Part shown: piece after piece, positions 26,443-49,702 of the stretch
Layout of the letters: each line of letters begins with the position of its first letter
Numbering within the stretch: the first letter of the stretch is position 1
NCBI GenBank assembly: GCA_030524545.1
Contig: JAUNGM010000004.1
Coordinates: forward strand, 1 to 64,000
Origin: Eubacteriales bacterium
GTDB taxonomy: Bacteria > Bacillota > Clostridia > Lachnospirales > Lachnospiraceae
Length of the DNA stretch: 64,000 nucleotides
Reading direction: 5' to 3'
The notes under the pieces: generated by a model
What the model was told of the DNA's origin: nothing
Database searches by the model: none
The model's input: the letters and a program-made list of their open reading frames with translations, nothing else
Position numbers and translations under genes: made by a program

Positions 26443-26525
26443 AAAAAAGGCGCTGACGATACAATCTGTATCGACAAACGCCTTTGTTATTTACTGACTA
26501 TAACTCAAACTTTCGGTTCTGTCAA
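26443..26525 (-). promoter_or_regulatory. livK promoter with ANTAR-type hexaloop/terminator leader
   Basis: Minus strand TTGACA (26520-26525), 17 bases, TATAGT (26497-26502). Predicted start near 26490. AAC-AAAGGC-GTT (26477-26488) is a short hairpin with a six-base loop (A1, G4). The terminator uses AAGGCG from that loop and stem as its outer 5' arm: AAGGCG...CGATACA-GATT-TGTATCG...CGCCTTTTTT-type fold (26443-26484). The two folds exclude each other, so binding of the hairpin would release transcription. The three-pair stem is the weakest of the six leaders here. Confidence 0.72.
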
Positions 26526-26555
26526 CCAATTTTCGCTTTTTCTCCGGAAATCTTT

Positions 26556-28766
26556 TTACAACAGTTTCTCATATTCCAGACAAGGAAGCGGCCTGGAATA
26601 ATAGAAGCCCTGAATGTCATTACAGCGAAGCTTCTGCAAGAATCCCACCTGTTCCTTGGATTCCACGCCTTCTGCGGTAATCTTCAGTCCCAGGCTTTTT
26701 ACAAGATTCACAATATGGTAAAGAAGCTTTTCTCCGTTCCTGTCACCAATGTGATCAATCAGGCTCTTATCCAGCTTCAATACATCAAAATGCATCTCAT
26801 TCAAAGACGACAGGGATGAATATCCGTTTCCGAAATCATCCAGAAGAAGCTGAAAGCCTGCCTTATGAAACTGATCGATCAAATCCTGAATTTCCTTATT
26901 GTCCACAGTAGCGCTCTCCGTAATCTCAAGCTGGATATATTGAGAGTCTACTTCACACTCTTCCAGAATCGCCCTGTATTTCTCCACAATATTCGAATAA
27001 TACAGGCTTGCACGGGAAATATTAATGGAAACCGGAAGAACCTGCTTTCCCTCCTTCAGCCAGCTCTTCTGCTGAGCGCACACTGTGCGGAACACATATT
27101 CATCCAGTTCTGCGATCATACCGTTCTTCTCAAACAGCGGAATAAATATGCCTGGCGGCACAAGGCTGCCGTCCTCCATACGCCAGCGCACCAATGCCTC
27201 AGAACCCACAATCGATGCATCGCTGGTACTGTATTTCGGCTGATACCATACTTCAAACCGATGATCACGGATGGCTTTTTCAAACCCGTCCTCCAGTCTG
27301 CGGTTCTTCAGCATGAGCTGGAAATCCGATTCCTCATAAAACGCATAATTCTGGTCACGCCTTCCTTTCACCTGATGGCGGGCGTGACTGGCGTAACTAT
27401 AATTTGTCTCCACCTCCGACAGATCGTCGGAATGATAAATACCGAAATACGGCACGACACGAGGCACATTCATAGTTTCTGACAGACCGGAAATTCTCTC
27501 GATCAGATGTTTCACGCGTATTTCCACCTGTTTCCGCTCTTCTTCTTCCAGATACAGGATAAAACGGTCCGCATTAATATGCGCAGCTAATTCCTCTCTC
27601 CGAATCTCGGAAGCCAGAATTTCCCAGACTGATTTCAGAATCATATTTCCCTTGCTTATTCCGCAGGTATTATTAATAATCTTAAATTCACTCAGATCCA
27701 TGGAAATAATATAGCCGGGAACATCCTTTTTCCGCTTGATTTTCTCCTGAAAGCAGGCATAATTATCTCCGCATGTCAGCGGATCCTGATAGGCAAGACT
27801 ATAAAGATCCTTCTTGCTTCTCTGATAAGAGTACACATAAACACAAAATGCAATTCCCAGCACCATGACCATAATAGCAAACAGGGTGTTGATATCTTTT
27901 AAGACCGGATTGACTTTTGCTTCCAGCACTTCTGCAGGGACTACAGTAAAAATAAACCATCGCCCTTCCTCCATTGAAAGATTCATGGGCATACAATAAT
28001 AATAACGCTTCCCTTCCAGATAATAACTTCCTCCGCCGCTCTTACCGCTCTTCAAAAGAGGGCTGATCTCATCTGTTGCTGTTTCGTTCTCATCCCGTCC
28101 CTCTGTCAACGCGTCAAAGAGATTTTCTTTCCCGTACATAGGTGACCTGGGAGAATCTGCGATAAGTGTACCATCCTCTTTTACAACAAGGCTATATCCT
28201 TCTCCGCTGAAGGATGTCACATTTAGCTGTTCCTTAAACATCTCAGTCCGGTAGGTTGCAAAAAGCACCCCTGCTGTCTGATCATTCTCCCGGTTGTAAA
28301 CAGGTACGCTGATCACATTGATCTGTTCTTCTTCCCCCAGACTGTCCGTCAAAACATCCGTAATATACGTTTCGCCTTTCATACTTTTCTGGAAAAAGTC
28401 CCTGAAAGACAGATTCTGTTTATAGCCGTCTGTTGTATAGGCCTGCCCGTCAGGATATACGAATCCCATCCGCTTAAAATGGTAATCCTCTGCAACGTCA
28501 CCCAAACCGGCGATCACATCTTCCTCTTCCCCGTTCTCCGGCACCTGCAGTTCCCGCGCAATCCCTTCCAGAAAGTTTTGCTTTCCCTGAATTTCCCTTT
28601 CTAAGGCAAGAGCATTTTGTTCTGCCACATTCTGAAGCGTATCCAGCATCTGGGTTCCAAGCTCATCCCTTAATCTTCTGTTGTAAATTCCTATGGAAAT
28701 CAATAGAACTGCCGCTGCTGCAATAAAAATAACAGCCCTGATTCCTTTCCCTTTTCCTGTCTGCAT
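26556..28766 (-). CDS. Membrane sensor with dCACHE, degenerate GGDEF and intact EAL domain (c-di-GMP phosphodiesterase)
   Basis: 736 residues: membrane segment (about 8-25), extracellular dCACHE-type sensor (about 40-280), second membrane segment (about 288-310), GGDEF-fold domain (about 325-480) and EAL domain (about 490-736). The GGDEF motif is replaced by NADRF, so no diguanylate cyclase activity is expected. The EAL side keeps EALVRW (about 523), SINIS, DDFGNGYSS (about 643), KLD and AEGVES, so it should hydrolyse c-di-GMP. Own promoter upstream. It sits between dapL and livK; a link to amino acid sensing is conceivable because dCACHE domains often bind amino acids, but this is inference. 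Confidence 0.9.
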   Translation of the reverse strand: MQTGKGKGIRAVIFIAAAAVLLISIGIYNRRLRDELGTQMLDTLQNVAEQNALALEREIQGKQNFLEGIARELQVPENGEEEDVIAGLGDVAEDYHFKRMGFVYPDGQAYTTDGYKQNLSFRDFFQKSMKGETYITDVLTDSLGEEEQINVISVPVYNRENDQTAGVLFATYRTEMFKEQLNVTSFSGEGYSLVVKEDGTLIADSPRSPMYGKENLFDALTEGRDENETATDEISPLLKSGKSGGGSYYLEGKRYYYCMPMNLSMEEGRWFIFTVVPAEVLEAKVNPVLKDINTLFAIMVMVLGIAFCVYVYSYQRSKKDLYSLAYQDPLTCGDNYACFQEKIKRKKDVPGYIISMDLSEFKIINNTCGISKGNMILKSVWEILASEIRREELAAHINADRFILYLEEEERKQVEIRVKHLIERISGLSETMNVPRVVPYFGIYHSDDLSEVETNYSYASHARHQVKGRRDQNYAFYEESDFQLMLKNRRLEDGFEKAIRDHRFEVWYQPKYSTSDASIVGSEALVRWRMEDGSLVPPGIFIPLFEKNGMIAELDEYVFRTVCAQQKSWLKEGKQVLPVSINISRASLYYSNIVEKYRAILEECEVDSQYIQLEITESATVDNKEIQDLIDQFHKAGFQLLLDDFGNGYSSLSSLNEMHFDVLKLDKSLIDHIGDRNGEKLLYHIVNLVKSLGLKITAEGVESKEQVGFLQKLRCNDIQGFYYSRPLPCLEYEKLL

Positions 28767-28882
28767 ATATGCCCTCTGTTCTCCGGACTTTATCCGCGAA
28801 TCCGTCCATCATAAAAAACCAAAAACCGTTACTGGCCTTATAACTTTCTGAATATTTTATATTATTTCCAAAATATACTACT

Positions 28883-28911
28883 ATTGTATCACTAGAAACC
28901 GTGATTTGCAA
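28883..28911 (-). promoter_or_regulatory. Promoter of the EAL protein gene
   Basis: TTGCAA (28906-28911), 17 bases, TACAAT (28883-28888) on the minus strand; leader of about 110 bases without an obvious fold. Confidence 0.6.
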
Positions 28912-28961
28912 GAAATGCACCACGAAAACACGTTACGAAAATGTGTAGACCAGAGAATAGC

Positions 28962-28984
28962 AAAAGGCGGGCCGGTATGCCGCC
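28962..28984 (-). terminator. Terminator of the aspS-gatCAB-dapL operon
   Basis: Minus strand GGCGG-CATACCGGC-CCGCC-TTTT, about 40 bases past the dapL stop. Short stem, moderate T-run. Confidence 0.6.
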
Positions 28985-29025: not shown

Positions 29026-30240
29026 TCAAAGTTTTGCAATTCGTTCGATAGCCTCGACCGTATTCTCATAAGTGCCAAATGCGGTCAGACGGAAAAATCC
29101 CTCGCCATGTGCCCCAAAACCGGAACCCGGCGTTCCTACGATATGAACCTTTTCCAGAAGGTAATCAAAGAATTCCCAGGAGGTCATCTGATCTGGTGTC
29201 TTCAGCCAGATATACGGCGCATTGACACCGCCGGATACGGAATAGCCGGCATTCTTAAGGCCTTCATAAATGACCTTCGCATTGCGCATATAATAAGCCA
29301 CCTGTTTCCTCAGCTGCTCCTTTCCTTCTGCCGAATATACGGCTTCTCCGGCACGCTGTACAATATAAGGGGCACCGTTAAACTTTGTTCCGTGACGTCT
29401 TGCCCAAAGATTGTGAAGCTTCACACCATCCCGTTCCAATTCTTTCGGAACTACGGTAAAACCAAGGCGTACGCCTGTAAATCCGGCATTTTTTGAAAAA
29501 CTGCGAAGCTCAATGGCACAGGTTTCGGCACCATCGCATTCATAAATCGTATGAGGAATATGATCCTCCGTGATATATGCTTCGTAAGCAGCATCATAAA
29601 TGATAACTGCTCCTGTCTTATTGGCATAGTCCACCCACTCCTGAAGCTTGTCCTTTGTAATCGCGGCTCCGCTTGGATTATTTGGGAAACACAGGTAGAT
29701 CAGATCCGGAGTCTCCTTTGGCAGCTCCGGAAGAAATCCGTTCTCTTCCCTGCACGGCATGTAGATCACACCGTCAAAATTTTCATGTGCAGGATTAAAT
29801 GCTCCTGTACGGCCGGCCATAACATTTGTATCCACATAAACCGGATAAACAGGATCGCAGACAGCCACTTTATTATCCAGGCCGAAAATCTCCTGGATAT
29901 TTCCGGAATCGCTCTTAGCTCCGTCTGAAACAAAAATTTCATCTGCTTCGATCCGGCATCCGCGGGCCTGATAGTCATTTTTTGCAATGGCGCTGCGCAG
30001 GAATTCATACCCCAGATCCGGTGCATATCCCCGGAATGTTTCCGCATTTGCCATTTCATCTACTGCTTTGTGAAGAGAATCAATAATAGCCGGAGCCAAC
30101 GGCTGGGTCACGTCACCGATACCAAGACGGATGATCTTTACATCCGGATTGGCTTCCTGATATGCGGCAACTTTTCTGGCAATCGTAGAAAACAGATAGC
30201 TGCCCTGTAATTTCAGATAATTTTTATTTACTGTAACCAT
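29026..30240 (-). CDS. dapL: LL-diaminopimelate aminotransferase
   Basis: Converts tetrahydrodipicolinate directly to LL-diaminopimelate using glutamate as amino donor, bypassing the acyl routes to lysine and peptidoglycan. 404 residues, right length. Hallmarks: RLGIGDVTQPLAP (about 38-50), SDGAKSDSGNIQEIFG, and the PLP Lys in SFSKNAGFTGVRLG (about residue 250). ATG 21 bases after the gatB stop with AGGAGAG, so it is the last gene of the aspS-gatCAB operon. It consumes glutamate, which fits a nitrogen-controlled unit. Confidence 0.96.
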   Translation of the reverse strand: MVTVNKNYLKLQGSYLFSTIARKVAAYQEANPDVKIIRLGIGDVTQPLAPAIIDSLHKAVDEMANAETFRGYAPDLGYEFLRSAIAKNDYQARGCRIEADEIFVSDGAKSDSGNIQEIFGLDNKVAVCDPVYPVYVDTNVMAGRTGAFNPAHENFDGVIYMPCREENGFLPELPKETPDLIYLCFPNNPSGAAITKDKLQEWVDYANKTGAVIIYDAAYEAYITEDHIPHTIYECDGAETCAIELRSFSKNAGFTGVRLGFTVVPKELERDGVKLHNLWARRHGTKFNGAPYIVQRAGEAVYSAEGKEQLRKQVAYYMRNAKVIYEGLKNAGYSVSGGVNAPYIWLKTPDQMTSWEFFDYLLEKVHIVGTPGSGFGAHGEGFFRLTAFGTYENTVEAIERIAKL

Positions 30241-30261
30241 GTCTTATAACTCTCCTGAATT

Positions 30262-31704
30262 TTAATTTTTACGTTTCTCAATCTCTTTCGTCAAAGCTTC
30301 CCTGACGGCATCCGGGCTTGCTTTGCCTTTTAATTCTTTCATCATTTTGCCTACAAAGAAACCAAATACCTTTTCCTTGCCCCCCAGAAGTTCAGAAAGA
30401 GGGCCGGGATTCTCTTCCAGGATCCGGTTCAGGGTATCGTTCAAAAGACCTGTATCTTCCACGATCCTCAGTCCTTTTTCTTCAATATAGGCAACAGGAT
30501 CGATATCCTCGTCAAATACAAGTTCAAATACCTTCTTGGCATTCTGGGCACTGACCTCTTTCTTTTCTACCATAAGAATCAGATCCGCCAGATGCTTCGG
30601 CGTAAAACATATCTGTTCCGGTTCCAGGGATTTTTCTTTCATGAGGCGCAATACCTCCACCATGAACCAGTTCGCTGCCTTTTTCGCATTTCCGCAAAGC
30701 CCTGCCACTTCCTCAAAAAGGGCGGAAAGAGCTCTGGACTCCGTAAGCAGACCGGCATCATAGGCCGGAAGGCCGTACTCCTCCTGATATCGTATAAGCT
30801 TCTCCTCACGAAGCTCCGGTTGGGAAGCACGAAGTTCTTCAATCCAGGCATCGGAAATGTGGATCGGAGGAAGATCCGGATCCGGGAAATAGCGGTAATC
30901 CTTGGCATCTTCCTTGGATCGCATAGCGTGGGAAGATTCTTTGTTGTCATCCCATCGGCGGGTTTCCTGAATCACAGGTTTTCCCATTTCCAGAAGCTCT
31001 ATCTGGCGTTCCCGTTCCCCTTCAATGGCCCTGGCAATGGCTTTGAAAGAGTTCAGGTTCTTCATTTCTGTTCTTGTCCCGAACTTCTCCGTTCCTGCTT
31101 CCCGCACGGAAAGGTTGACATCCGCACGCATGGAACCCTCCTGCAGCTTACAGTCTGATACGCCCAGATACTGCATCATACAGCGAAGCTTTTCCAGGTA
31201 CGCAATAACCTCCTCGGCACTTCGCATGTCCGGCTCGGAAACAATTTCGATCAGCGGTACGCCGCTTCGGTTAAAGTCTACAAGGGAACAATCCTCCCAT
31301 TCATCATGGATAAGCTTGCCGGCATCCTCCTCCATATGCATTTCATGGATACGGATTTTCTTTTTTCCTGCGGATGTTTCGATCTCTACCCACCCGTCGT
31401 GACAGATTGGCAGATAAAGCTGGGATATCTGATAGTTCTGCGGGTTATCCGGATAAAAATAATTCTTCCTGTCAAATTTGCAGTACTGATTGATCTTACA
31501 GTTGGCAGCGATTCCTGCCTTCAGGGCAAACTCCACTACCTGCCTGTTCAATACAGGAAGGGAACCCGGCATACCGGTACATACCGGGCAGGTATGGGTA
31601 TTGGGTGCTCCGCCGAATTCTGTGGAGCAGCCGCAGAAAATCTTTGTTTTGGTGGCAAGTTCTACATGAACTTCCAGACCAATGACTGTCTCATACTGTT
31701 TCAT
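30262..31704 (-). CDS. gatB: Asp-tRNA(Asn)/Glu-tRNA(Gln) amidotransferase subunit B
   Basis: 480 residues. Binds misacylated tRNA and phosphorylates its aminoacyl group. EVHVELATKTKIFCGCSTEFG (in part, residues 10-30) and CPVCTGMPG carry the zinc cysteines; the cradle domain and C-terminal YqeY/tail domain are present. Starts with ATGA overlapping the gatA stop, hence coupled translation. Confidence 0.97.
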   Translation of the reverse strand: MKQYETVIGLEVHVELATKTKIFCGCSTEFGGAPNTHTCPVCTGMPGSLPVLNRQVVEFALKAGIAANCKINQYCKFDRKNYFYPDNPQNYQISQLYLPICHDGWVEIETSAGKKKIRIHEMHMEEDAGKLIHDEWEDCSLVDFNRSGVPLIEIVSEPDMRSAEEVIAYLEKLRCMMQYLGVSDCKLQEGSMRADVNLSVREAGTEKFGTRTEMKNLNSFKAIARAIEGERERQIELLEMGKPVIQETRRWDDNKESSHAMRSKEDAKDYRYFPDPDLPPIHISDAWIEELRASQPELREEKLIRYQEEYGLPAYDAGLLTESRALSALFEEVAGLCGNAKKAANWFMVEVLRLMKEKSLEPEQICFTPKHLADLILMVEKKEVSAQNAKKVFELVFDEDIDPVAYIEEKGLRIVEDTGLLNDTLNRILEENPGPLSELLGGKEKVFGFFVGKMMKELKGKASPDAVREALTKEIEKRKN

Positions 31705-33173
31705 GCTCTTTTGCCTCCTTCCACAGCCATGGGAAATGCCCCGCGGCCCGTTTCATATCCCTTTGCCGCACGCAGGATCTTCTTTTCCATGAAGCAGTCA
31801 CCGATCATCTGGATGCCCACCGGGAGCCCGGTGCTGTCCTGACCGCAGGGAACCGTAATTCCCGGAAGACCGCAGAGGTTTACAGCTACAGTATAAATGT
31901 CTCCCAGATACATGGCAAGAGGATTTTTTAAGCTTTCCCCGATCTTCGGCGCAGTAAAAGGAGCAGCCGGAGCAAGAAGGACATCGTATTTTTCAAATGC
32001 ACTGTCAAATTCCTGTTTGATCAGCGCCTTTGTCTTCAGCGCTTTCAGGTAGTAGGCATCATAATAACCGGAGCTTAATACGAAAGAACCAAGCATGATG
32101 CGGCGTTTCACCTCTTCGCCAAAGCCCTCGGTTCTGGTCTTTTTGTACATATCGTGGAGGCCTTCATAATCCTTTGCGCGATAGCCGTATTTGACACCGT
32201 CAAAACGTTCCAGGTTGGAGCTTGCTTCCGCACTGGCAATAATATAGTAGGCAGGAATCATATATTCCGTTGTTTTCATAGAAAAAAATTCGACGATTGC
32301 TCCCTGCCGGGTCAATACTTTCAGCGCATCCATAAAGGCACTCTTTACTTCCGGATCCAGTCCCTCTGCAAGATACTCCTTCGGAACCCCGAATTTCATG
32401 CCTAACAGCTTTCCTGACATCTCTTTGGAAAAATCCAGATCCTGTCTGTCAATGGATGTACTGTCTTTCGGGTCATGGCCTGCAATGATCTCCAAAAGTG
32501 CTGCGCAGTCCGCCACATCCTTTCCTACAGGTCCGATCTGATCCAGGGAAGAGGCATAGGCAACAAGACCATAACGCGATACCGTTCCGTAAGTAGGTTT
32601 CAGCCCTGTCACTCCGCAGAACGAACTGGGCTGTCTGATAGAACCGCCGGTATCAGACCCGAGAGCCAGATACGTTTCCCCTGCGGCCACGGCTGCGCAG
32701 GAACCGCCGGAAGAACCTCCCGGTACATGCTCCGTATCCCACGGGTTTCTGGTAATGCCGTATGCGGAAGTTTCCGTGGTACTTCCCATGGCAAATTCAT
32801 CCATATTCGTCTTGCCGATAATCACAAGGCCAGCCTTCTCCAGGCGGTCAATCACCTCGGCATTATACTGCGGTACAAAATTCTCCAGAATCCTGGAGGC
32901 ACACGTTGTCTTCTTTCCTTTGATACAGATGTTATCCTTGATCGCAATGGGAACACCTGCCAAAGGTCCTGTATAAGTGCCGTCGGCAATTCCCTTTTCC
33001 ACCTGTTTTGCCCTTGCGTAGGCTTCTTTTTTGTAGGTGTCAAGATAGGCGTGGATTTTTGGTTCGCTTTTTTCGATCTGTTCGAATACGTGCTTTACGC
33101 CATCCAGGACACTGATCTGATTCTGTTTTATTTTTTCCGCAAGCTGCAGTGCGGTAAGTTTATCCAGATCCAT
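31701..33173 (-). CDS. gatA: Asp-tRNA(Asn)/Glu-tRNA(Gln) amidotransferase subunit A
   Basis: 490-residue amidase-signature glutaminase that releases ammonia from glutamine for GatB. The Ser-cisSer-Lys triad is supplied by the Lys in AIKDNICIKG (about residue 76) and the serines in GGSSGGSCAAV and GSDTGGSIRQPSSFCG. Twelve bases after gatC. Confidence 0.97.
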   Translation of the reverse strand: MDLDKLTALQLAEKIKQNQISVLDGVKHVFEQIEKSEPKIHAYLDTYKKEAYARAKQVEKGIADGTYTGPLAGVPIAIKDNICIKGKKTTCASRILENFVPQYNAEVIDRLEKAGLVIIGKTNMDEFAMGSTTETSAYGITRNPWDTEHVPGGSSGGSCAAVAAGETYLALGSDTGGSIRQPSSFCGVTGLKPTYGTVSRYGLVAYASSLDQIGPVGKDVADCAALLEIIAGHDPKDSTSIDRQDLDFSKEMSGKLLGMKFGVPKEYLAEGLDPEVKSAFMDALKVLTRQGAIVEFFSMKTTEYMIPAYYIIASAEASSNLERFDGVKYGYRAKDYEGLHDMYKKTRTEGFGEEVKRRIMLGSFVLSSGYYDAYYLKALKTKALIKQEFDSAFEKYDVLLAPAAPFTAPKIGESLKNPLAMYLGDIYTVAVNLCGLPGITVPCGQDSTGLPVGIQMIGDCFMEKKILRAAKGYETGRGAFPMAVEGGKRA

Positions 33174-33523: not shown

Positions 33524-34855
33524 TTACGGCTCAAGTCTGTTCAGATCACGCGGGAACAGACATGCCTCTCTTACATTCTCTTCTCCCAAAAGCTGCATGG
33601 TAAGACGTTCCAGTCCGATGCCAAGGCCTCCGTGAGGCGGCATACCATGCTTAAAGGTATCCAGGTACTGCTCCATACCTTCCTCTTCCATCCCTCTTGC
33701 GGCAATCTTTTCCCGGAGGGCTTTGTAATCATGAATACGCTGTCCGCCGGTAGTCACCTCAAGGCCATGGAACAAAAGGTCAAAACTCAGTGTAAATCTT
33801 TCATCTGCCGGATCGTCCATTGCATAGAACGGTCTCTTTTTAGATGGGTAATGGGTGACAAATACAAAATCCGCATCATATTCTTCTTTAAAATACTGCC
33901 CGATCAGAGCCTCTTCCTCCGGCTCCAGATCGTAAGGGTTACGGATCTTTCTGTCATATTTCTTTGCAACAAGCTGTTTCGCTTCGTCAAAGCGGACAGC
34001 GGGGATTCTGGAGACGTCCGGAAGCTCTGCCTTCAGGATGGAAAGCTCCTTTGCATACTCCTTCTTCAGTAGTTCCATGGCGTACTGAAGATAACCTGTC
34101 TCCATAGCCATGATTTCTTCAAAACCGTCGATATATCCCATCTCGAAGTCCAGACTGGTATATTCATTCAGATGGCGCTTGGTATTATGCTTTTCTGCAC
34201 GGAATACAGGCCCTGTCTCAAATACACGGTCAAACACTCCTACCATCATCTGTTTATAAAACTGCGGGCTTTGCGCAAGAACTGCAGGTTTGTGGAAATA
34301 GCTGAATTTGAACAGGTTGGCACCGCCTTCCGCTCCTCTTGCACCGATCTTCGGCGTGTGAATTTCCGTGAAACCTTTTTCATAAAGGTAATCGCGGAAT
34401 GCTCTTGTCAAAGCTTCCTGTATCTTGAATTTAGATCTTTCCTGGATATTACGGAGGGCGATGGATCGAAGGTTCAGTTTAGCCTCCAGAGAAGTATTCA
34501 GTTTCCATTTATCTATAGCCATCGGCATAGGCTCTGCCGGTGCTGACAGGATCTCAATACTGCGGATACGAAGTTCTCTGCCGTGGGGAGCTCTCTCCTC
34601 TTCACTGACAGTTCCCCGAACACGAACGGTCATTCCTTCCTTCAGGTCATGAATCGATACATTCACCTGCTCACTCTCAAAAACTGTCTGAAAAAGTCCC
34701 TCTCGTCTCCGCAGGATCACAAATGCCACATCTCCCATATGACGGATGCTGTGAATCGCACCTTCCAGGACTGCTTCCTGATTCAGGACGGAATCTCCAA
34801 GCAGAGTTTCCCAGTCACAAACTTCTTTTTTCCATGTTCCATCCAAAAATTCCAT
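33524..34855 (-). CDS. aspS: Archaeal-type, probably non-discriminating aspartyl-tRNA synthetase
   Basis: 443 residues, lacking the GAD insertion domain of the ~590-residue bacterial AspRS; thus the archaeal/AspRS2 type. OB-fold anticodon domain (about 20-125), then class II core with motif 2 FRAEKHNTKRHLNEY and motif 3 GGLGIGLERLTM. The position taken by a discriminating Trp in archaeal AspRS (GWVH...IRD) reads GAIHSIRH, consistent with charging both tRNA-Asp and tRNA-Asn. Cotranscription with gatCAB supports tRNA-dependent asparagine formation. Start at MEFLDGTW, eight bases after GGAGG; an upstream ATG overlaps that site. Non-discrimination is inferred. Confidence 0.9.
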   Translation of the reverse strand: MEFLDGTWKKEVCDWETLLGDSVLNQEAVLEGAIHSIRHMGDVAFVILRRREGLFQTVFESEQVNVSIHDLKEGMTVRVRGTVSEEERAPHGRELRIRSIEILSAPAEPMPMAIDKWKLNTSLEAKLNLRSIALRNIQERSKFKIQEALTRAFRDYLYEKGFTEIHTPKIGARGAEGGANLFKFSYFHKPAVLAQSPQFYKQMMVGVFDRVFETGPVFRAEKHNTKRHLNEYTSLDFEMGYIDGFEEIMAMETGYLQYAMELLKKEYAKELSILKAELPDVSRIPAVRFDEAKQLVAKKYDRKIRNPYDLEPEEEALIGQYFKEEYDADFVFVTHYPSKKRPFYAMDDPADERFTLSFDLLFHGLEVTTGGQRIHDYKALREKIAARGMEEEGMEQYLDTFKHGMPPHGGLGIGLERLTMQLLGEENVREACLFPRDLNRLEP

Positions 34856-34912
34856 TTCCTCATCCTCCATTCAAGTCTTTTGACATATCTATGTGCCGTT
34901 GATAACCGGCAT

Positions 34913-34996
34913 AAAAAATCCTGCCATACCCGTAATCACCCGGGTAAGCCAGGATTGGATATCTTGATCACGCCTTTGTGATCACAAAACTGTATA
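34913..34996 (-). promoter_or_regulatory. aspS operon promoter with ANTAR-type hexaloop and terminator
   Basis: GATCAC-AAAGGC-GTGATC (34966-34983) is a perfect six-pair hairpin with six-base loop (A1, G4). TATACA (34991-34996) precedes it by seven bases, with a weak TTTTTG -35 at 17 bases, so the hairpin starts at about +1. Nine bases later comes a terminator (34913-34956): AATCCTG.CTTACCCG paired with CGGGTATG.CAGGATTTTTT. Unlike the other leaders, hairpin and terminator do not share bases, so release must work differently or through the linker. Confidence 0.72.
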
Positions 34997-35577: not shown

Positions 35578-35652
35578 ATAATGTTACTCCTCTTTCGCCC
35601 CATCCCATCAAAATATAAATCTCATTACTGCTGCCAAAACATGGCTGCTTTA

Positions 35653-38712: not shown

Positions 38713-38715
38713 GTA

Positions 38716-41800: not shown

Positions 41801-43382
41801 TACAGTCAATCGGCGGGTTGGTAACCTGCGCAAAAATCTGCTTAAAATAATCAAATAATGGTCTGTGTTCTTTGGAAAGAACAGCAAGCGGAGTGTCCAC
41901 ACCCATAGCACCGATGCTCTCAGCCCCATTCAGTGCCATATTGCGGATAGAGGTGCGGTACTGTTCATAAGTATATCCAAAAGCCTTCTGCAGACGGGCA
42001 CGCTGTTCTTCCGTATACTCTTCCACCCTCTGGTTCGGTATCTTAATATCTTTCAGAAGAACAAGATTGCTGTTCAGCCATTCGCCGTACGGCTGCATTT
42101 TGGCGTATTTTTCTTTTAATTCATTGTCATCGATGATCCTGCCCTGAACAGTATCCACCAGAAGCATCTTGCCGGGATGCAGACGTTCCTTTAAGACGAT
42201 CTTCTCTTCCGGTACAGGCATAACGCCAACTTCTGAAGAAAGGATCACATATCCATCGGAGGTCACATAATATCTGGACGGACGAAGGCCGTTTCTGTCA
42301 AGCACTGCACCCATCACATCACCATCAGAAAACAGGATGGATGCCGGGCCGTCCCATGGTTCCATCATAGTTGCATAATATTGGTAGAAATCTCTCTTTT
42401 CCTGGGAAATGGTATCGTTGTTGGCCCATGGTTCCGGGATAGTGATCATAACTGCCAACGGAAGATCCATGCCGCTCATAACCAGAAATTCCAGAGTATT
42501 GTCAAGCATTGCAGAGTCAGAACCTGCTCTGTTGACAACCGGAAGGACTTTATGCAGTTCCCCTTTCAGATACGGAGACTCCATGTTCTCTTCTCTTGCC
42601 AGCATCTTGTCCGCATTTCCGCGGATAGTATTGATTTCTCCGTTGTGTACCATAAAGCGGTTCGGATGTGCACGTTCCCAGCTTGGGTTGGTATTGGTAC
42701 TGAAACGGGAATGTACCATGGCAATTGCTGATTCATAATCAGGACTCTGAAGATCCGCAAAGAACGTGCGGAGCTGTCCTACCAGAAACATACCTTTATA
42801 TACGATCGTACGGCTGCTCATAGATACGACATACGTATTGTCATTACTCTGTTCAAATTCCCGGCGTGCAATATACAGCATCCTGTCAAAAGGAAGCCCT
42901 GTCTCCACATCCTCCGGTTTTTTGATAAATGCCTGCATGATACACGGCATACATTCTCTTGCCTTATGCCCCAGAACCTCCGGGATCACAGGCACGGTTC
43001 TCCATCCGAGAAGTTCCAGTCCCTCCTTGCGGATGATGATCTCAAACATTTTTTTCGCCTGGGCACGTTTGATCTCATGCTGCGGAAAAAAGAACTGTGC
43101 AATGCCGTATTCTCTTTCCTGGCCGATTTCGATGCCCTCTTTCTTACAGGCTTTTTTGAAGAATTTATGGGAAATCTGCAGCAGGATTCCTACACCGTCA
43201 CCGGTTTTTCCTTCCGCATCCTTTCCGGCGCGGTGTTCCAGATTTTCCACGATCTTCAGCGCATTGGCAACTGTCTCATGGGTTTTCTTTCCTTTGATGT
43301 TGACTACCGCGCCGATACCGCAGTTGTCATGTTCGAATTGGGGACGGTAAAGTCCCATCTCTTCCTTTCTCACTTCTCTCAT
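38835..43382 (-). CDS. gltB: Glutamate synthase large subunit
   Basis: Produces two glutamates from glutamine and 2-oxoglutarate. About 1515 residues: class II glutaminase with autocatalytically exposed Cys in FEHDNCGIGAVV, central domain, FMN-binding synthase domain (KPGEGGHLPAKKVYPWIA), [3Fe-4S] cysteines CVMMRVCNLDTCPVG and a C-terminal GXGXG beta-helix (GGRVVVLGKTGKNFAAGMSGG, in part). The frame continues upstream into pyrG; I place the start at MREVRKEE, eight bases after AAGGA, with MGLYRPQ (43358) as a real alternative. It sits 52 bases after pyrG in a pyrG-gltB-gltD unit. Confidence 0.95.
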   Translation of the reverse strand: MREVRKEEMGLYRPQFEHDNCGIGAVVNIKGKKTHETVANALKIVENLEHRAGKDAEGKTGDGVGILLQISHKFFKKACKKEGIEIGQEREYGIAQFFFPQHEIKRAQAKKMFEIIIRKEGLELLGWRTVPVIPEVLGHKARECMPCIMQAFIKKPEDVETGLPFDRMLYIARREFEQSNDNTYVVSMSSRTIVYKGMFLVGQLRTFFADLQSPDYESAIAMVHSRFSTNTNPSWERAHPNRFMVHNGEINTIRGNADKMLAREENMESPYLKGELHKVLPVVNRAGSDSAMLDNTLEFLVMSGMDLPLAVMITIPEPWANNDTISQEKRDFYQYYATMMEPWDGPASILFSDGDVMGAVLDRNGLRPSRYYVTSDGYVILSSEVGVMPVPEEKIVLKERLHPGKMLLVDTVQGRIIDDNELKEKYAKMQPYGEWLNSNLVLLKDIKIPNQRVEEYTEEQRARLQKAFGYTYEQYRTSIRNMALNGAESIGAMGVDTPLAVLSKEHRPLFDYFKQIFAQVTNPPIDCIREEIVTSTSVYVGKDGNLLVQQPENCQVLKIVHPILTNTDMLKIKTMKKEGFKVAVVSTLYYKSTKLERAIDRLFVEVDKAFREGANILVLSDRGVDENHMPIPSLLAVSAVHQHLVKTKKSTSLAIIVESGEPREVHHFATLLGYGASAINPYLALETIRELIDNHMLDKDYYAAVDDYNHAVLSGIVKIASKMGISTLQSYQGAQIFEAIGISGDVIDKYFTGTVSRVGGITLEDIEDNVEKLHSEAFDPLGMNTDLTLDSVGAHKMRSQGEEHRYNPQTIHLLQQSTKCGDYQMFKEYTKLVDQESHGNLRGLMKFKYAEKPIPLEEVESVDEIVKRFKTGAMSYGSISQEAHETLAVAMNHLHGKSNTGEGGESDERIDSAGSVNDRCSAIKQVASGRFGVTSRYLVSAKEIQIKMAQGAKPGEGGHLPAKKVYPWIAKTRHSTPGVSLISPPPHHDIYSIEDLAQLIYDLKNANKYADISVKLVSEAGVGTVAAGVAKAGAQTILISGYDGGTGAAPRSSIHNAGLPWELGLAETHQTLLMNGLRNRVRIETDGKLMSGRDVAIAALLGAEEFGFATGPLVTMGCVMMRVCNLDTCPVGVATQNPELRKRFRGKPEYVENFMRFIAQELREYMARLGVHTIDEMVGRTDLLTPAADVAEPHKGKVDLSAILNNPYAGSSEKVTFDPKAEYNFELDKTLDEKVLLKKCAKAISTGEHTEIDVQVTNTDRAFGTILGAEITRQNKDGLPEDTIVVNCTGAGGQSFGAFIPKGLTLNLTGDSNDYFGKGLSGGKLIVKVPEKAAYKAEENIIVGNVALYGATSGTAFINGVAGERFAVRNSGAYAVVEGVGEHGCEYMTGGRVVVLGKTGKNFAAGMSGGIAYVLDVHNELYKNINKAMISIEKVDNKYDKKELRDLIEAHVEATGSKLGAMILADFETYLPHFKKLIPDEYKRMITLSAKLEEKGLTNEQAQMEAFYESIGAKH

Positions 43383-43434
43383 TACCCTCATCCTTTCTGT
43401 CTGTTTTTCTATAGGAACAGTTCCGGAATATCCG

Positions 43435-45051
43435 TTACTGCTTTTTTGCATTTGCATTATCAAGTGCTGCCTGAACAAATCCGCCAAACAAAGGATGCGC
43501 ATGATTTGGACGGGATTTAAATTCCGGATGGCCCTGTGTGCCGATAAAGAACGGGTGGGATACCACCTCCACCATTTCCACAATATGTCCGTCCGGTGAT
43601 GTCCCGGCGATCATCATTCCCTTTTGCGCCAGTTCCTCTCTGTAGGCGTTATTTACCTCATAGCGGTGTCTGTGACGCTCCTGAATCTCCTTTTTGCCAA
43701 ACAGCCTGATAGATTTAGAATCATCTGCGAGTACACAGGGATAGCTTCCCAGTCTCAGGGTTCCTCCCAGGTCTTCCACGCTTTCCTGATCCGGCATCAG
43801 TGCAATTGCCGGATGTTTCGTCTCCGGATCCAATTCAATGCTGTTGGCATCTTCATATCCCAGAACGTGACGGACAAATTCCACAATTGCCATCTGCATA
43901 CCAAGACAAATGCCAAGATATGGTATTTTATGCACTCTGGCATACTGTGCAGCCAGAATCATTCCTTCCGTACCTCTGTTGCCGAAACCTCCGGGAACCA
44001 GGATTCCGTCCGCGCTGTAAAGCATCTGATCCAGATTCTTCTCATTCAGTTCCTCGGAATCCACCCAAAGCAGATCCACCTTGGCTCTGCAGGCGATTCC
44101 GCCATGCTTCAGGGCTTCCACAACACTTAGGTATGCATCATGAAGCTGTGTATATTTTCCCACAATAGCAATCTTTGCAGTTCCTTCCGGATTCCTTAAG
44201 CTGCTGACCATTTCTTCCCAGTCTGTCAGATCCGGCTTTCGATTTTCAAGGCGAAGGGTCTGGAGAACCACATCTGCCAGCTTCTCTCTCTCCATCGCAA
44301 GAGGCGCTTCATATAAATATTCTACGTCCAGATTCTGCAATACATGACTGACCGGTACATTACAGAACAAGGCGATCTTTTGTTTGATTTCATCCGTTAC
44401 CGGATGCTCGCTCCTGCATACCAGTACATCCGGCTGGATTCCCATTCCCTGCAGTTCTTTTACGCTTGCCTGGGTAGGCTTGGTCTTCATCTCTCCGGAA
44501 GCCTTCAGATACGGAATCAGAGTTACATGGATCAGTACGGCGTTGTCATGTCCGACTTCATGCTGAAACTGACGGATAGATTCCAGAAACGGCTGACTCT
44601 CGATATCACCAACTGTTCCTCCCACCTCAATAATGGCAATCCTGTCTTCGTCCGGCGCTTTGGCTCTGTAAAAGCGGCTCTTGATCTCATTCGTAATATG
44701 CGGAATGACCTGTACCGTACCGCCGCCGAAATCTCCGTGACGCTCCTTCTGCAGTACAGACCAATAGATTTTTCCTGTTGTGACATTCGAATTTTTATCC
44801 AGAGACTCATCAATAAAACGTTCATAATGACCCAGATCCAGGTCTGTCTCCGTCCCGTCATCCGTCACAAATACTTCCCCATGCTGGATCGGATTCATCG
44901 TGCCCGGGTCAATATTGATATATGGATCAAATTTCTGCATCGTTACCTGATAGCCTCTCGCCTTCAAAAGTCTGCCAAGAGATGCTGCCGTAATGCCTTT
45001 TCCAAGTCCGGAAACAACACCTCCGGTGACAAACACATATTTTACTGCCAT
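43435..45051 (-). CDS. pyrG: CTP synthase
   Basis: Aminates UTP to CTP with glutamine. 538 residues: N-terminal synthetase ([20 protein letters not shown], residues 6-25) and C-terminal class I glutaminase with Cys in GICLGMQMA (about residue 382) and the GHPEF tail. ATG preceded by GGAGGAGG. First gene ahead of gltBD, behind a hexaloop/terminator leader; its glutamine demand explains that placement. Confidence 0.97.
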
Positions 45052-45143: not shown

Positions 45144-45237
45144 AAAAAAACGTCCGAAGCAGAGATTATGGGTATAATATTCCCCCTCTGCTCCTGACGC
45201 CTTTGTCAGAACTGATTATGACCTTTGTTACATTATA
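45144..45237 (-). promoter_or_regulatory. pyrG-gltBD leader with ANTAR-type hexaloop/terminator
   Basis: CTGAC-AAAGGC-GTCAG (45194-45209) is a clear hexaloop hairpin (A1, G4), extendable by further pairs. Its 3' arm (CGTC) is also the base of the terminator CGTC.GGAGCAGAG...CTCTGCTTC.GACG-TTTTTTT (45144-45199), so the folds compete. Two possible -10 elements exist: CATAAT (45215-45220, putting the hairpin at about +1) and TATAAT (45232-45237). Neither has a good -35. A second AAAGGT word at 45222-45227 lacks pairing arms. Confidence 0.72.
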
Positions 45238-46907: not shown

Positions 46908-47023
46908 CCCTTGTCTAAAAAAAAGTCCGGCACAGGCGGAAAGAAGGGGCAAAAAACCAGACACAGGAGAGATGCCCTCTTCCGCTCTCCCACAATTTTT
47001 TTTAATTTTTTTCGAAAAATCCA

Positions 47024-47101
47024 TTGACAAGATTTTTTTTTGGTGTATACTACGTCACATAAGCAACGGCGCTTTGGATGATATCCAAGGCGCTTTTTTT
47101 G
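47024..47101 (+). promoter_or_regulatory. glnN promoter with ANTAR-type hexaloop/terminator leader
   Basis: TTGACA (47024-47029), 16 bases, TATACT (47046-47051, preceded by TG). Start near 47058. AAGC-AACGGC-GCTT (47061-47074) is a hexaloop hairpin (A1, G4) at about +3. It shares its loop end and 3' arm with the terminator GCGCTTTGGAT-GAT-ATCCAAGGCGC-TTTTTTT (47069-47101). The two folds cannot coexist. A leader of about 65 bases follows before the ATG. Confidence 0.8.
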
Positions 47102-47166
47102 TTTATATACACATATTCAAGATTATAAAAGGATTAATGGATCTCAATCGAAAGGAGCGTACCTAT

Positions 47167-49266
47167 ATGGCACAAAATATTCCTGAACTGTATGGCAGTC
47201 TTGTATTCAACGACAAGATCATGCGTACCAAATTACCAAAAGACATGTACAAGGCACTGAGAAAAACCATCCAGAACGGATCGCATCTGGAACTGGATGT
47301 TGCCAATTCCGTAGCAGTTGCTATGAAAGAATGGGCAATCGAAAACGGTGCTACCCATTATACTCACTGGTTCCAGCCGATGACCAACTTTACTGCTGAA
47401 AAGCACGACAGCTTCATCTCACCGACCGGTGACGGACAGATCATTATGGAGTTCTCCGGTAAAGAACTCGTAAAAGGCGAGCCGGATGCATCCAGCTTCC
47501 CTTCAGGAGGACTTCGTGCCACATTTGAGGCAAGAGGATATACAGCATGGGACCCGACATCACCGGCTTTCATTAAAGACCGTACCCTTTATATTCCTAC
47601 CGCATTCTGTTCCTACAGCGGTGAAGCACTGGATAAGAAAACTCCTCTTCTCCGTTCCATGGACGCATTAAATGTAGAAGCGCTGAAAGTTCTCCGTGTT
47701 CTGGGCAACACAGAGGTAAAACACATTACCACTACCGTAGGACCGGAACAGGAATACTTCCTTGTTGACAAAGAACTTTACAACCAGAGAAAAGACCTGA
47801 TTTACTGCGGCCGTACTCTGATCGGTGCTCCTGCTCCAAAGGGACAGGAAATGGAAGACCACTATTTCGGAACCCTGAAGCCAAGAGTTGCCGCTTATAT
47901 GCATGATCTGGATGAAGAACTCTGGAAACTGGGTATCCCGGCAAAAACAAAGCATAACGAGGTTGCTCCTGCTCAGCACGAGCTGGCACCTGTTTTCGAT
48001 ACCACCAACGTTGCAGTTGACCACAACCAGCTTACCATGGAAATCATGAAAAAAGTGGCTGACAAACACGGTATGGTATGCCTGCTTCACGAAAAACCAT
48101 TTGAAGGCATCAACGGAAGCGGCAAACACAACAACTGGTCCATGAGTACAGATACCGGCGTGAACCTTCTTGACCCAGGCAAAACACCTGCTGAAAACAC
48201 CCAGTTCCTGGTATTCCTGGTAGCCGTTATCAAAGCAGTGGACGATTATGCAGATCTTCTTCGTATCTCCGTTGCAAGTGCAGGAAACGACCACAGACTT
48301 GGCGCTAATGAGGCACCGCCTGCAATCGTATCCATCTTCCTCGGGGATGAACTTACCGAAGTATTAAAGGCCATCGAAAATGACGAATTCTTCGCCGGAC
48401 ATGGTGCCATTCAGATGGATATCGGTGCAAAAGTTCTTCCGCACTTTGTAAAAGACAACACCGACAGAAACCGTACTTCACCATTTGCATTCACAGGAAA
48501 CAAATTCGAATTCCGTATGCTTGGCTCTTCCGCTTCTGTCGCTAACCCGAACATCATCCTGAACACTGCCGTAGCTGAAGTTCTCAGCCAGTTCGCAGAG
48601 AAACTGAAGGATGTGCCTGCGGAAGAAATGAACCAGGCTGTTCACAATCTGCTGAAAGAAACCATTATTGCTCACAAACGCGTTATCTTTAACGGCAACG
48701 GATATACGGATGAGTGGGTAGAAGAAGCAGAAAAACGTGGCCTTTACAATCTGAAATCCACACCTGACGCACTGGAGCAGTTCGTCAGCCCGAAGAATGA
48801 GGCACTGCTTACAGGACATAACATCTTTACGAAGGGTGAACTTCACTCCCGCTACGAGATCAAGCTTGAAAATTATGTGAAGACCCTGCATATTGAGTCC
48901 TGCACAATGGCTGAACTCATCCAGAAGGATATGCTGCCGAGCATAACTACCTATATGGAACAGGTTGCACGCACAGCAAGTCTGAAGAAGTCCGTAGTTC
49001 CGGATATTTCCGTTGCAAGCGAAGCAGATCTTCTCACTAAGCTTACTGCCCTGTCCGAATCCATGATTGCAGGACTCGCAACCCTGAAAGAGGATACTGC
49101 AAAGGCAGAAGGCTGCGAAGATATTCTTGCAAGCGCCAAAGCTTATCAGTCCACTGTACTGGCCGATATGGAAGCTCTTAGAAAATCTGCTGACGAGGCA
49201 GAAGCTCTGCTTCCGGAGAGCGTTCTTCCGTATCCTACATACGGCAAGCTGCTGTTCTCCATCTAA
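47167..49266 (+). CDS. glnN: Glutamine synthetase type III
   Basis: 699 residues, typical of the large hexamer-of-dimers GSIII found in Bacteroides, cyanobacteria and Clostridia. GSIII-specific N domain (YGSLVFNDKIMRTKLPKDMYK, in part), then TTVGPEQEYFLVD, KHNEVAPAQHELAPVFD, GINGSGKHNNWS and NDHRLGANEAPPAI carry substrate and metal residues; the C-terminal GSIII helical region follows. The start MAQNIPELYG has AAAGGAG nine bases upstream; the open frame extends 65 codons further into the leader and promoter and is not coding there. Confidence 0.96.
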   Translation: MAQNIPELYGSLVFNDKIMRTKLPKDMYKALRKTIQNGSHLELDVANSVAVAMKEWAIENGATHYTHWFQPMTNFTAEKHDSFISPTGDGQIIMEFSGKELVKGEPDASSFPSGGLRATFEARGYTAWDPTSPAFIKDRTLYIPTAFCSYSGEALDKKTPLLRSMDALNVEALKVLRVLGNTEVKHITTTVGPEQEYFLVDKELYNQRKDLIYCGRTLIGAPAPKGQEMEDHYFGTLKPRVAAYMHDLDEELWKLGIPAKTKHNEVAPAQHELAPVFDTTNVAVDHNQLTMEIMKKVADKHGMVCLLHEKPFEGINGSGKHNNWSMSTDTGVNLLDPGKTPAENTQFLVFLVAVIKAVDDYADLLRISVASAGNDHRLGANEAPPAIVSIFLGDELTEVLKAIENDEFFAGHGAIQMDIGAKVLPHFVKDNTDRNRTSPFAFTGNKFEFRMLGSSASVANPNIILNTAVAEVLSQFAEKLKDVPAEEMNQAVHNLLKETIIAHKRVIFNGNGYTDEWVEEAEKRGLYNLKSTPDALEQFVSPKNEALLTGHNIFTKGELHSRYEIKLENYVKTLHIESCTMAELIQKDMLPSITTYMEQVARTASLKKSVVPDISVASEADLLTKLTALSESMIAGLATLKEDTAKAEGCEDILASAKAYQSTVLADMEALRKSADEAEALLPESVLPYPTYGKLLFSI

Positions 49267-49311
49267 TAATTAAGAGGAATTTTTTCAGCAACAACTTTAT
49301 ACCGGTAAAAT

Positions 49312-49394
49312 CAGGGGATATCATTATGAACATCCACTTCATAATTCATTATCGATTTCCTCATCCATTAATCACACGATACGGATATCCCCTG
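49312..49394 (+). terminator. Large stem-loop ending glnN
   Basis: CAGGGGATATC (49312-49322) pairs with GATATCCCCTG (49384-49394) and is followed by TTTTAC. Inside, ATTATGAA pairs with TTCATAAT. The long loop makes it an unusual terminator, but its position just after glnN fits. Confidence 0.55.
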
Positions 49395-49430
49395 TTTTAC
49401 ATATATAGCATAAAAGTCCCGGACAGCAGA

Positions 49431-49613
49431 CATGAGACAGGGCATGCTTGCATGCAATGACTCATGGATATTGGACGGGCTGACCCCTATGAGGAAGTAG
49501 AGCGATAGCTCGAATTCCGTTGCTGAGCGCCAGTGGCGCTCGTTTAGCAACGACCGAAGCGGAGCGTAGACATATGGGGTGCGATTGTGAAAGCGCAAAG
49601 CGCGAAACAATCG
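49431..49613. other. Densely folded intergenic segment, unidentified
   Basis: Helices in order: CATGAG...CTCATG around GCATGC-TT-GCATGC (49431-49466); CCCCTATG (49484-49491) with CATATGGGG (49571-49579, one bulge) closing a multiloop; GAGC-GATA-GCTC (49500-49511); GTTGCT-GAGCGCC-AGT-GGCGCTC-gttt-AGCAAC (49519-49551); CGATTGT...ACAATCG enclosing GCGC-AAA-GCGC (49582-49613). A minus-strand frame covers it but looks like a by-product of the repeats. It lies between glnN and amt, upstream of the amt hexaloop. Either a structured RNA or a dispersed repeat element. Confidence 0.65.
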
Positions 49614-49660
49614 ACTTTTATTTAATACTGATGTCTGCGTAAGCAGACATATCCAATTAG

Positions 49661-49702
49661 TTCGCAAAGGCGCGGAGGATTTTTCAGTCCTCCGCGTTTT
49701 TT
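49661..49702 (+). promoter_or_regulatory. amt leader with ANTAR-type hexaloop/terminator
   Basis: TTCGC-AAAGGC-GCGGA (49661-49676, with a T-G pair) has the same six-base loop (A1, G4). Its 3' arm is the start of the terminator CGCGGAGGA-(8)-TCCTCCGCG-TTTTTT (49671-49702), so the two exclude each other. No convincing promoter is visible upstream; a hairpin TGTCTGC-GTAA-GCAGACA at 49633-49650 lies where one would be expected. Confidence 0.72.

Follow-up and report, generated by a model that had tools for sequence, protein, structure and literature searches.

The target RNAs described for ANTAR-domain regulators consist of two hexaloop hairpins separated by a short linker, and the nitrogen-related targets listed in the same paper are P-II, ammonium and urea transporters, and glutamate and glutamine synthases (Ramesh 2012, PMC3369931). 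The structure of EutV indicates that one dimer cannot hold both hairpins, and the P1 hairpin was proposed to serve for recruitment (PMC8934654). P1 is essential in eutP, and NasR binds a single hairpin weakly (~12 µM), two being needed for full affinity. NitR of Clostridium saccharobutylicum (Stutz 2007) is described in a review as an ANTAR antiterminator of the GS/GOGAT genes that is induced by nitrogen limitation (PMC6316151).

The leaders analysed here lie in a 64,000-nt stretch of DNA from Eubacteriales bacterium (GCA_030524545.1, contig JAUNGM010000004.1, positions 1 to 64,000, forward strand), referred to below as the window. The original prediction placed a hairpin with the loop AAAGGC, AAGGGC, or AACGGC, followed by an intrinsic terminator, in front of six transcription units, and all six leaders were found (Table 1). 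Each of the six loops has A at its first and G at its fourth position (A1 and G4), in agreement with the ANTAR recognition rule, and the A-C/G-U closing pairs also agree with the eutP rule. The hexamer by itself is not enriched in the window (158 occurrences vs 150 expected) and was dropped as evidence; the significance sits in the combination of hairpin, promoter, and terminator. The stem begins 8 nt past the -10 box in the livK (TTGACA/TATAGT) and glnA (TTGACA/TATAAT) leaders, and the spacing is about the same in the glnN leader (TTGACA/TATACT at 47024-47051) and in that of oppA, a seventh leader located in the same genome outside the window. No consensus promoter was found for the aspS or amt leader. 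The livK stem has only 3 bp. Rfam searches at gathering scores left the leaders unmatched in the window and in seven further loci. A Clostridiales-1 RNA precedes the amt hairpin.

Table 1. Leaders and associated genes in the window
Feature	Positions	Strand	Loop (positions)	Description
LivK-type substrate-binding protein	25230-26378	-		Peripla_BP_6; scores under NCBIfam cut-offs
livK leader	26443-26491	-	AAAGGC (26480-26485)	AAC-AAAGGC-GTT hairpin, terminator overlaps
gatA, gatB, dapL	29026-33173	-		follow aspS and gatC; gatB and dapL identified by NCBIfam, gatA named in the original prediction
aspS	33524-34870	-		non-discriminating aspartyl-tRNA synthetase; NF003483, TIGR00458
aspS leader	34912-34984	-	AAAGGC (34972-34977)	TGATCAC-AAAGGC-GTGATCA hairpin, then separate non-overlapping terminator
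nitR-like ANTAR regulator	35023-35577	-		184 aa; pseudo-receiver, long helix, ANTAR domain 132-177
glnA	35653-36975	-		type I glutamine synthetase; TIGR00653
glnA leader	37116-37173	-	AAGGGC (37162-37167)	GAAC-AAGGGC-GTTC hairpin, terminator overlaps
gltD	37228-38736	-		glutamate synthase; NCBIfam TIGR01317
gltB	38835-43583	-		glutamate synthase; named in the original prediction, served as BLAST query
pyrG	43435-45051	-		CTP synthase (glutamine-hydrolysing); profile matches
pyrG leader	45144-45212	-	AAAGGC (45199-45204)	TTCTGAC-AAAGGC-GTCAGGA hairpin, terminator overlaps
glnN leader	47059-47100	+	AACGGC (47065-47070)	AAGC-AACGGC-GCTT hairpin, terminator overlaps
glnN	47167-49266	+		type III glutamine synthetase; GSIII_N; start shifted from 46972
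amt leader	49660-49702	+	AAAGGC (49666-49671)	TTCGC-AAAGGC-GCGGA hairpin, terminator overlaps
amt-PII	49826-51562	+		578 aa; ammonium transporter fused to P-II domain; PF00909 10-409, PF00543 461-565

Folding predicts that the hairpin and the intrinsic terminator are mutually exclusive in five of the six window leaders and in that of oppA, with the terminator favoured over the hairpin by 7.9-16.7 kcal/mol in these six of the seven leaders. The aspS leader differs, since its hairpin and terminator can coexist, and the idea that it acts as a classical antiterminator in this genome was not borne out. A second hairpin, P2, concealed in the aspS terminator (TCCAATCCTGG) was considered and rejected, as by eye the candidate loop lacks G4. 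With its hairpin clear of its terminator and no consensus promoter detected, the aspS leader may be an attenuator within a glnA-nitR-aspS operon rather than a separate unit. All six predicted leaders are real. In the predicted amt-PII unit, Amt and P-II form a single fused protein. The glnN reading frame probably starts near 47167, on the 3' side of the leader, rather than at 46972.

The genome contains 23 distinct AANGGY-plus-T6 sites; five are window leaders, and outside the window only that of oppA (C72) is leader-like. Site C25, with a stem of 5 including G-U, has no overlapping terminator by eye. The C50 site scored 17.1 bits.

The loop and its pairing are kept upstream of orthologous glnA, pyrG, glnN, and some aspS genes, and the stem covaries strongly, in two leader sets. 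In the ortholog comparison, which drew on 111 loci including two that are the window's own, AANGGY followed by T5, with no stem demanded, occurs in 45/74 glnA, 31/38 pyrG, 13/47 aspS, and 6/6 glnN upstream regions. A stem of at least 4 bp is present at 43, 31, 9, and 5 of these sites, respectively. Upstream of the control genes gltD, dapL, gatA, and gltB, the site was found in 10 of 180 regions, every time with a stem of 0-1 bp. This comparison of sequences excludes a chance origin of the leader pattern.

An alignment was made of 68 of 100 collected leaders, which, apart from the six of the window, had been preselected for a stem of 4 bp or more. Thirteen leaders were excluded, namely those of aspS but one and five of pyrG with a misplaced T-run; another 14 near duplicates and five others are also absent from the alignment. 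Within the window, the glnA, pyrG, livK, and glnN leaders score 29-41 bits with the model R1 (livK 31.5). The aspS leader, matched in its hairpin part only, reaches 14.9 bits and that of amt 13.7, no better than a chance match at 54344 (15.0), so that both rest on reading and on their relatives. In congeners, the leaders detected by model search lie in front of asnB, amt-PII, amino-acid transporters, and aminotransferases. Among 40 regions fetched out of 98 matches, eight had no leader-like arrangement, and 26 of the remaining 32 leaders precede nitrogen genes, which upholds the assignment of the targets to nitrogen metabolism.

The proposal that one ANTAR regulator serves the regulon agrees with its gene being the sole ANTAR gene found in the whole genome and adjoining glnA. 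When Lachnospiraceae genomes were searched with a model of the leaders, as had been suggested, matches accompanied ANTAR genes: 41 of 66 genomes with an ANTAR gene had a match, vs none of 11 without (E 0.03; raw counts that ignore kinship). The cut-offs were chosen after the E-values were known, and the family comparison is shown at three; at E 1, five of the 11 ANTAR-lacking genomes show a match. These 77 genomes, of 100 in the family set, include all 28 with no or a weak NitR match. In the class, matches were found in 46/104 genomes with an ANTAR gene vs 6/92 without a detected one, again as raw counts that ignore kinship. At the cut-offs used, 25/66 ANTAR-bearing family genomes and 58/104 ANTAR-bearing class genomes have no model match. 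The first look of this search scores few candidates and missed the glnN leader of the window's own genome. A loose pattern run over the 77 genomes was unused as evidence, its reversed control often being matched as well among the matches listed.

The regulator, NitR, matches the ANTAR domain PF03861 with 57.8 bits (cut-off 27.3) and corresponds in fold to a complete, full-length ANTAR response regulator. In the VIA-align structural comparison, EutV is the only ANTAR protein among the 50 matches listed, which include neither AmiR nor Rv1626. Of 111 loci surrounding the ANTAR gene, the window's own (35023-36975) among them, 106 contain glnA. The EutV residues that hold G4 (Lys149, Glu160, Tyr164, and Met172) are retained: K140, E151, and M163 are kept in 31 of 31 NitR sequences, and position 155 is Y, F, or H. 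The phospho-acceptor Asp is absent; motif and numbering relate the site to position 54, where all 31 sequences have G, S, or A, and receiver positions 9-10 are L and P (29/31 each) in place of the acidic pair.

From these sequence features, we consider it likely that a NitR-type ANTAR protein governs a nitrogen regulon, acting as a transcription antiterminator on one hexaloop hairpin per leader. By default, each leader except that of aspS would fold into an intrinsic terminator whose stem incorporates the hexaloop or the arms flanking it. In the glnA, glnN, livK, and oppA leaders, the hairpin would be approximately the first thing transcribed. When nitrogen is limiting, active NitR would catch the A1/G4 hexaloop as it emerges from the polymerase and hold the weak hairpin closed, so that the terminator would be blocked and the polymerase would read through. 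Since the receiver lacks a phosphorylation site, the signal is presumably gated by protein contact or a ligand and not by a kinase; glutamine synthetase and P-II are candidates.

The leaders do not correspond to an ANTAR target RNA of the described type, a departure that the original prediction passed over: each contains one hexaloop hairpin instead of two. A second hexaloop occurs upstream in 12/106 leaders vs 14.1 ± 3.4 in shuffles and in 2/32 of a further set vs 3.6 ± 1.7, and downstream in 24/106 vs 20.4 ± 4.0; in other Clostridia, too, its frequency stays at shuffle level. In the comparison that covered other Clostridia, L231 and L246 were assigned wrong, longer hairpins. It is possible, if unlikely, that control is of the canonical two-hairpin kind and that the site is completed by a further hexaloop, either degenerate, far away, or carried by a different transcript. 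The requirement for both hairpins in eutP and for the full affinity of NasR speaks for this explanation. There is also room for P1 in the pyrG leaders, where the stem lies 13-63 nt past the -10 box, and in several leaders of other families, and an A1/G4 hexaloop of some kind stands upstream in 6/29 leaders of the class, a little more than the 3.9 ± 1.8 expected. However, the second hexaloops remain at shuffle level on both sides, and the ones observed mostly do not recur in orthologous leaders. Furthermore, the stem begins 7-12 nt past the -10 box in 44 of the 48 glnA leaders having a promoter, and most glnA and glnN leaders would have no upstream room if transcription starts ~7 nt past that box. 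Control by NitR through a single hairpin thus appears, as judged from the leaders, to depart from two-hairpin ANTAR targets.

It is very improbable that the AANGGC loop is a mere 5' arm of a terminator (AAAGGCG..CGCCTTTT) and that the leaders are plain attenuators or terminators with no protein reader. The loop does pair within the terminator in several leaders according to folding, and a convergent terminator at C40:29964, which has a gene identified by eye as a putative prs on one side and a stretch lacking any downstream gene on the other, fits the pattern too; that site was rejected as a leader. Against this, the stem covaries, the predicted terminators of livK, pyrG, and glnN leave the 5' arm of the hairpin unused, and an association with ANTAR genes is unexpected for plain terminators. 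The 106-leader set was selected by its AANGGY loop and therefore provides no test of the loop rule. In 11 aspS leaders with a separate terminator, whose hairpins were chosen without the rule, A1 is nevertheless kept in 11/11 and G4 in 10/11, while positions 5-6 vary; the G4 exception, L058, was assigned a wrong, longer hairpin.

Equally hard to credit is that the hairpin is recognized by a different RNA-binding factor, or that it acts in message stability or translation, next to an ANTAR gene that is just a neighbour of glnA: co-occurrence is no proof of binding and its counts ignore phylogeny, a 5'-end hairpin could protect the message, and matches exist in six of the 92 class genomes where no ANTAR gene was detected, but the loop and closing pairs follow the ANTAR rule, NitR keeps the G4-holding residues, the association is seen in both family and class, and the overlapping terminator suggests action at the level of transcription.

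Antitermination by NitR at a single hairpin may be part of something broader. The evidence leaves evenly balanced the proposal of a distinct Clostridia ANTAR class in which one 5'-end hexaloop hairpin would be the whole target, P1 would be dispensable, and the protein would catch nascent RNA. Its non-phosphorylatable receiver would get the signal when a nitrogen sensor, either glutamine synthetase or P-II, touches it directly, and Lachnospiraceae as well as many related families would use the switch as their general circuit for nitrogen limitation. A large natural set without P1 would allow a direct test of why ANTAR RNAs carry two hairpins. No account of a nitrogen regulator in common gut Clostridia, Blautia for example, was found in the literature consulted; the regulon would give them a named regulator and its targets, and the 51-position model lets such regulons be read from genomes.

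Compared with known systems, the leaders resemble the dual-hairpin ANTAR RNAs as described in PMC3369931 in the A1/G4 hexaloop, the short stem closed by C-G under A-U or G-C, the overlap with an intrinsic terminator, and the nitrogen genes that follow. They differ in having one hairpin, positioned near the 5' end of the transcript in many leaders. Unlike EutV (PDB 6wsh, 6ww6), as presented in PMC8934654, NitR lacks a phosphorylatable Asp, and a kinase gene was not seen adjoining it. The counterparts of EutV Arg142, Lys143, Lys147, and Arg168 are mostly Q/E, N, N, and Q, and the two lysines, described there as the second chain's contact with the same hexaloop, are thus mostly Asn. NitR resembles AmiR (PDB 1qo0) in being an ANTAR protein with a pseudo-receiver, a term taken from PMC3369936, but the sequence match is weak (E 0.16) and no AmiC-like partner gene was noticed adjoining nitR. 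The breadth of the regulon had been put forward as worth describing; a broad ANTAR nitrogen regulon as such is already known (Ramesh 2012; NitR). As far as the review's description of C. saccharobutylicum NitR goes, the two systems share the ANTAR gene beside glnA and the link to GS/GOGAT, and the regulon described here extends beyond it to pyrG, glnN, amt-PII, asnB, urea-type and amino-acid transporters, and aspS.

When the sequence is read at the six places for which a hexaloop/terminator leader had been predicted (livK, aspS, glnA, pyrG, glnN and amt), each shows a short hairpin whose loop has six bases and, behind it, an intrinsic terminator. The loop is AAAGGC in four leaders, AAGGGC in one, and AACGGC in one. 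The hexamer by itself is not enriched in the window (158 occurrences against 150 expected), whereas the arrangement of hairpin and terminator is above chance. Profile matches identify a binding protein of the LivK type, the product of a non-discriminating aspS, and those of gatB, dapL, glnA, gltD and pyrG, as well as a type III glutamine synthetase. The ammonium transporter and P-II form a single fused polypeptide of 578 residues, and the same fusion of 590 residues occurs in a congener. A Clostridiales-1 RNA lies between glnN and amt, immediately 5' of the amt hexaloop. On the strand that carries dapL and the livK leader, a Cache-GGDEF-EAL protein is encoded between the two. Elsewhere in the window, a T-box leader is located close to a tRNA gene.

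Locations of features in the window and in regions fetched from outside it
Feature	Location	Strand	Basis or detail
T-box leader	window 8935-9207	-	
tRNA gene	window 9402-9475	+	
Cache-GGDEF-EAL protein	window 26556-28766	-	
ANTAR protein	window 35023-35577	-	PF03861
Clostridiales-1 RNA	window 49411-49620	+	RF01699, 66 bits
Fused ammonium transporter/P-II	window 49826-51562	+	profiles
oppA-type binding protein gene and leader	L146 1-1640 (C72)		pattern searches; loop AAAGGT
Tandem switches of amt-PII, congener	L228 2228-2426	-	
Second hexaloop leader, congener	L242 391-447	-	

The leaders are conserved around relatives of the ANTAR gene. AANGGY with a T5 run behind it was sought, with no stem required, in 111 such loci, two of which belong to the window. 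The motif is present upstream of glnA in 45 of 74 cases, pyrG in 31 of 38, aspS in 13 of 47, and glnN in all six, and a stem of at least 4 bp accompanies it in 43, 31, 9 and 5 of these, respectively. The control genes gltD, dapL, gatA and gltB have a site in 10 of 180 regions, always with a stem of 0-1 bp. The covariation of the stems put forward in the original prediction is borne out. In an alignment of 68 leaders, most of them preselected for a stem of at least 4 bp, which biases the share of paired cells (the 111-locus count is free of this bias), both sides changed in 110 hairpin cells against 40.3 in shuffles, and the score is 0.616 against 0.251. When the partner is shifted by one column, the score falls to 0.16 or 0.28. 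Covariation is again strong among leaders matched in 40 congener regions, an alignment fitted to the covariance model (59 against 22.0 cells; score 0.631 against 0.244).

The covariance model of the single-hairpin leader, R1, spans 51 positions. It assigns 29-41 bits to the glnA, pyrG, livK and glnN leaders of the window, while aspS (14.9, from the hairpin part only) and amt (13.7) do not rise above a chance match at position 54344 (15.0). Loop and pairing are kept 5' of orthologous glnA, pyrG, glnN and some aspS genes. The first stage of genome searches with R1, those counted below included, is lossy and missed the genome's own glnN leader. Pattern searches of the same genome identified one convincing leader outside the window, 5' of an oligopeptide-type binding protein (SBP_bac_5) and with a weak promoter (9/12), so that five of the six pattern-found leaders lie within 23 kb.

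Within the genus, 37 of 41 genomes, the present one included, have an R1 match at E 0.5. The 98 matches outside this genome were sampled by fetching 40 regions, 32 of which contain a leader-like arrangement with a downstream gene (two genes start 318 and 466 nt away). Nitrogen genes follow 26 of the 32 leaders: glnN (5), glnA (2), asnB (4), family-3 binding proteins (6), which presumably bind amino acids, class III/GABA-type aminotransferases (4), and one each of agcS, a urea-type binding protein, amt-PII, dapL and a purF-like gene; names in regions L210, L215 and L220 are taken from near-identical partners. The remaining six are two PPDK_N proteins (one named via its partner), a LacI regulator, an ABC ATPase, a cytidylate-kinase-like protein, and one that matches nothing in Pfam at 1e-10. 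One amt-PII gene is preceded by two hexaloop/terminator switches about 110 nt apart, which might sharpen the response. In another congener region a second hexaloop leader is located after asnB, and the following gene may therefore be switched separately.

The ANTAR gene had been noted as the only one in the window, and no second ANTAR protein turned up when the whole genome (4.34 Mb) was searched. Its closest named relatives are from Blautia, so that the source organism probably belongs to that genus or stands near it. The NitR-like protein is matched in 85 of 100 family genomes, its own counted, 72 of them with E below 1e-20. The ANTAR domain is missing from 11 of 77 of these family genomes, and four of the 11 are less than 90% complete. 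R1 matches at E <=0.03 occur in 41 of 66 ANTAR-bearing genomes and none of the 11 lacking the domain (p 9e-5, ignoring phylogeny); at E 0.01 and 0.001 the counts are 38 and 24 against 0. With the genomes that feed R1 through their own loci removed, the result is 35/59 against 0/11, although same-species records may still be within R1. When relaxed to E 1, 5 of the 11 ANTAR-lacking genomes show a match. In the class, 196 genomes at least 90% complete were compared, 104 with an ANTAR domain above the cut-off. R1 matches 46 of these at E 0.02 against 6 of the 92 others (p 6e-10, ignoring phylogeny), and 26 against 1 at E 0.002.

Described ANTAR targets consist of two hexaloop hairpins (P1 and P2), whereas one is seen in the leaders here. 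Induction of eutP was lost when P1 was deleted, and linkers cut to 3 or extended to 14 nt failed (PMC3369931); excerpts of PMC7496416 give binding of NasR to a single hairpin at about 12 µM. A consensus promoter precedes 48 of 56 glnA leaders, and in 44 of the 48 the stem starts 7-12 nt past the -10 box. The distance is 6-9 nt for glnN (7/7), 8 nt for livK and 9 nt for oppA. With the usual initiation some 7 nt past the -10 box, the hexaloop hairpin would stand at the 5' end in these four leader types. The pyrG stem lies 13-63 nt past the -10 box (27/32 leaders with promoter); there would be space for P1, and its apparent absence there rests on the hexaloop scan. No consensus promoter was found for eight aspS leaders or for amt.

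The scan sought a second loop with A and G at positions 1 and 4 (A1/G4) on a stem of at least 3 bp. On the upstream side, 12 of 106 leaders have such a loop (14.1 ± 3.4 in shuffles), as do 2 of 32 congener leaders (3.6 ± 1.7) and 6 of 29 class leaders (3.9 ± 1.8); on the downstream side it occurs in 24 of 106 (20.4 ± 4.0). P1 would fall outside the single-hairpin R1, and therefore the model does not select against two-hairpin leaders. Of the 29 class leaders, 27 come from 17 other families, and in 19 of the 23 with a promoter the stem lies 6-28 nt past the -10 box; genomes without a detected ANTAR gene supply two of the 29. Ammonium transporters, glnA, gltB, class II glutamine amidotransferases and a glutamate dehydrogenase follow these leaders, as do an MCP, a PucR regulator and further genes.

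In the livK, glnA, pyrG, glnN, amt and oppA leaders the terminator is the predicted default fold, favoured by 7.9-16.7 kcal/mol over the best structure in which the hexaloop hairpin is retained; the hairpin alone has +1.3 to -7.2 kcal/mol. A factor holding the hexaloop hairpin during the passage of polymerase would cause antitermination. Two observations speak for recognition of the loop rather than mere pairing with the terminator. One is the covariation of the stem, together with a predicted terminator that leaves the 5' arm of the hairpin unused in livK, pyrG and glnN. The other comes from 11 aspS leaders whose separate terminator is conserved and whose loops were chosen without the loop rule: A1 is kept in 11 and G4 in 10 (in L058, the one exception, the wrong hairpin was picked), and positions 5 and 6 are variable. 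In contrast to the other leaders, the aspS hairpin and terminator coexist on folding. The start of the aspS terminator, TCCRRTCCTGG, is conserved 4-7 nt past the hexaloop stem in 10 of 11 leaders (e.g. L036, L038, L064); pairing with the hexaloop hairpin is not required.

Neither single-hairpin ANTAR leaders nor this Lachnospiraceae regulon came up among the titles and abstract openings listed, in largely open-access literature, or in passages of PMC3369931, PMC8164766, PMC6316151, PMC4676874, PMC3369936, PMC8934654, PMC7496416, PMC6759348 and PMC2864571. A review describes the NitR protein of Clostridium saccharobutylicum as an antiterminator of the ANTAR type acting on GS/GOGAT genes (PMC6316151), and Clostridium thermocellum carries a similar gene (PMC4676874). 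Ramesh 2012 described two-hairpin targets at P-II, ammonium/urea transporters, glutamate synthases and glutamine synthases; Desulfotomaculum acetoxidans has 13 such RNAs across six units (PMC3369931). An ANTAR nitrogen regulon is therefore not new in itself. The original prediction holds as an observation and was right about the kind of system, but did not notice that the target RNA is without the second hairpin, a defining feature of the known target. The new part is best filed as putative single-hairpin ANTAR antitermination via a NitR that is not phosphorylatable in the usual way.
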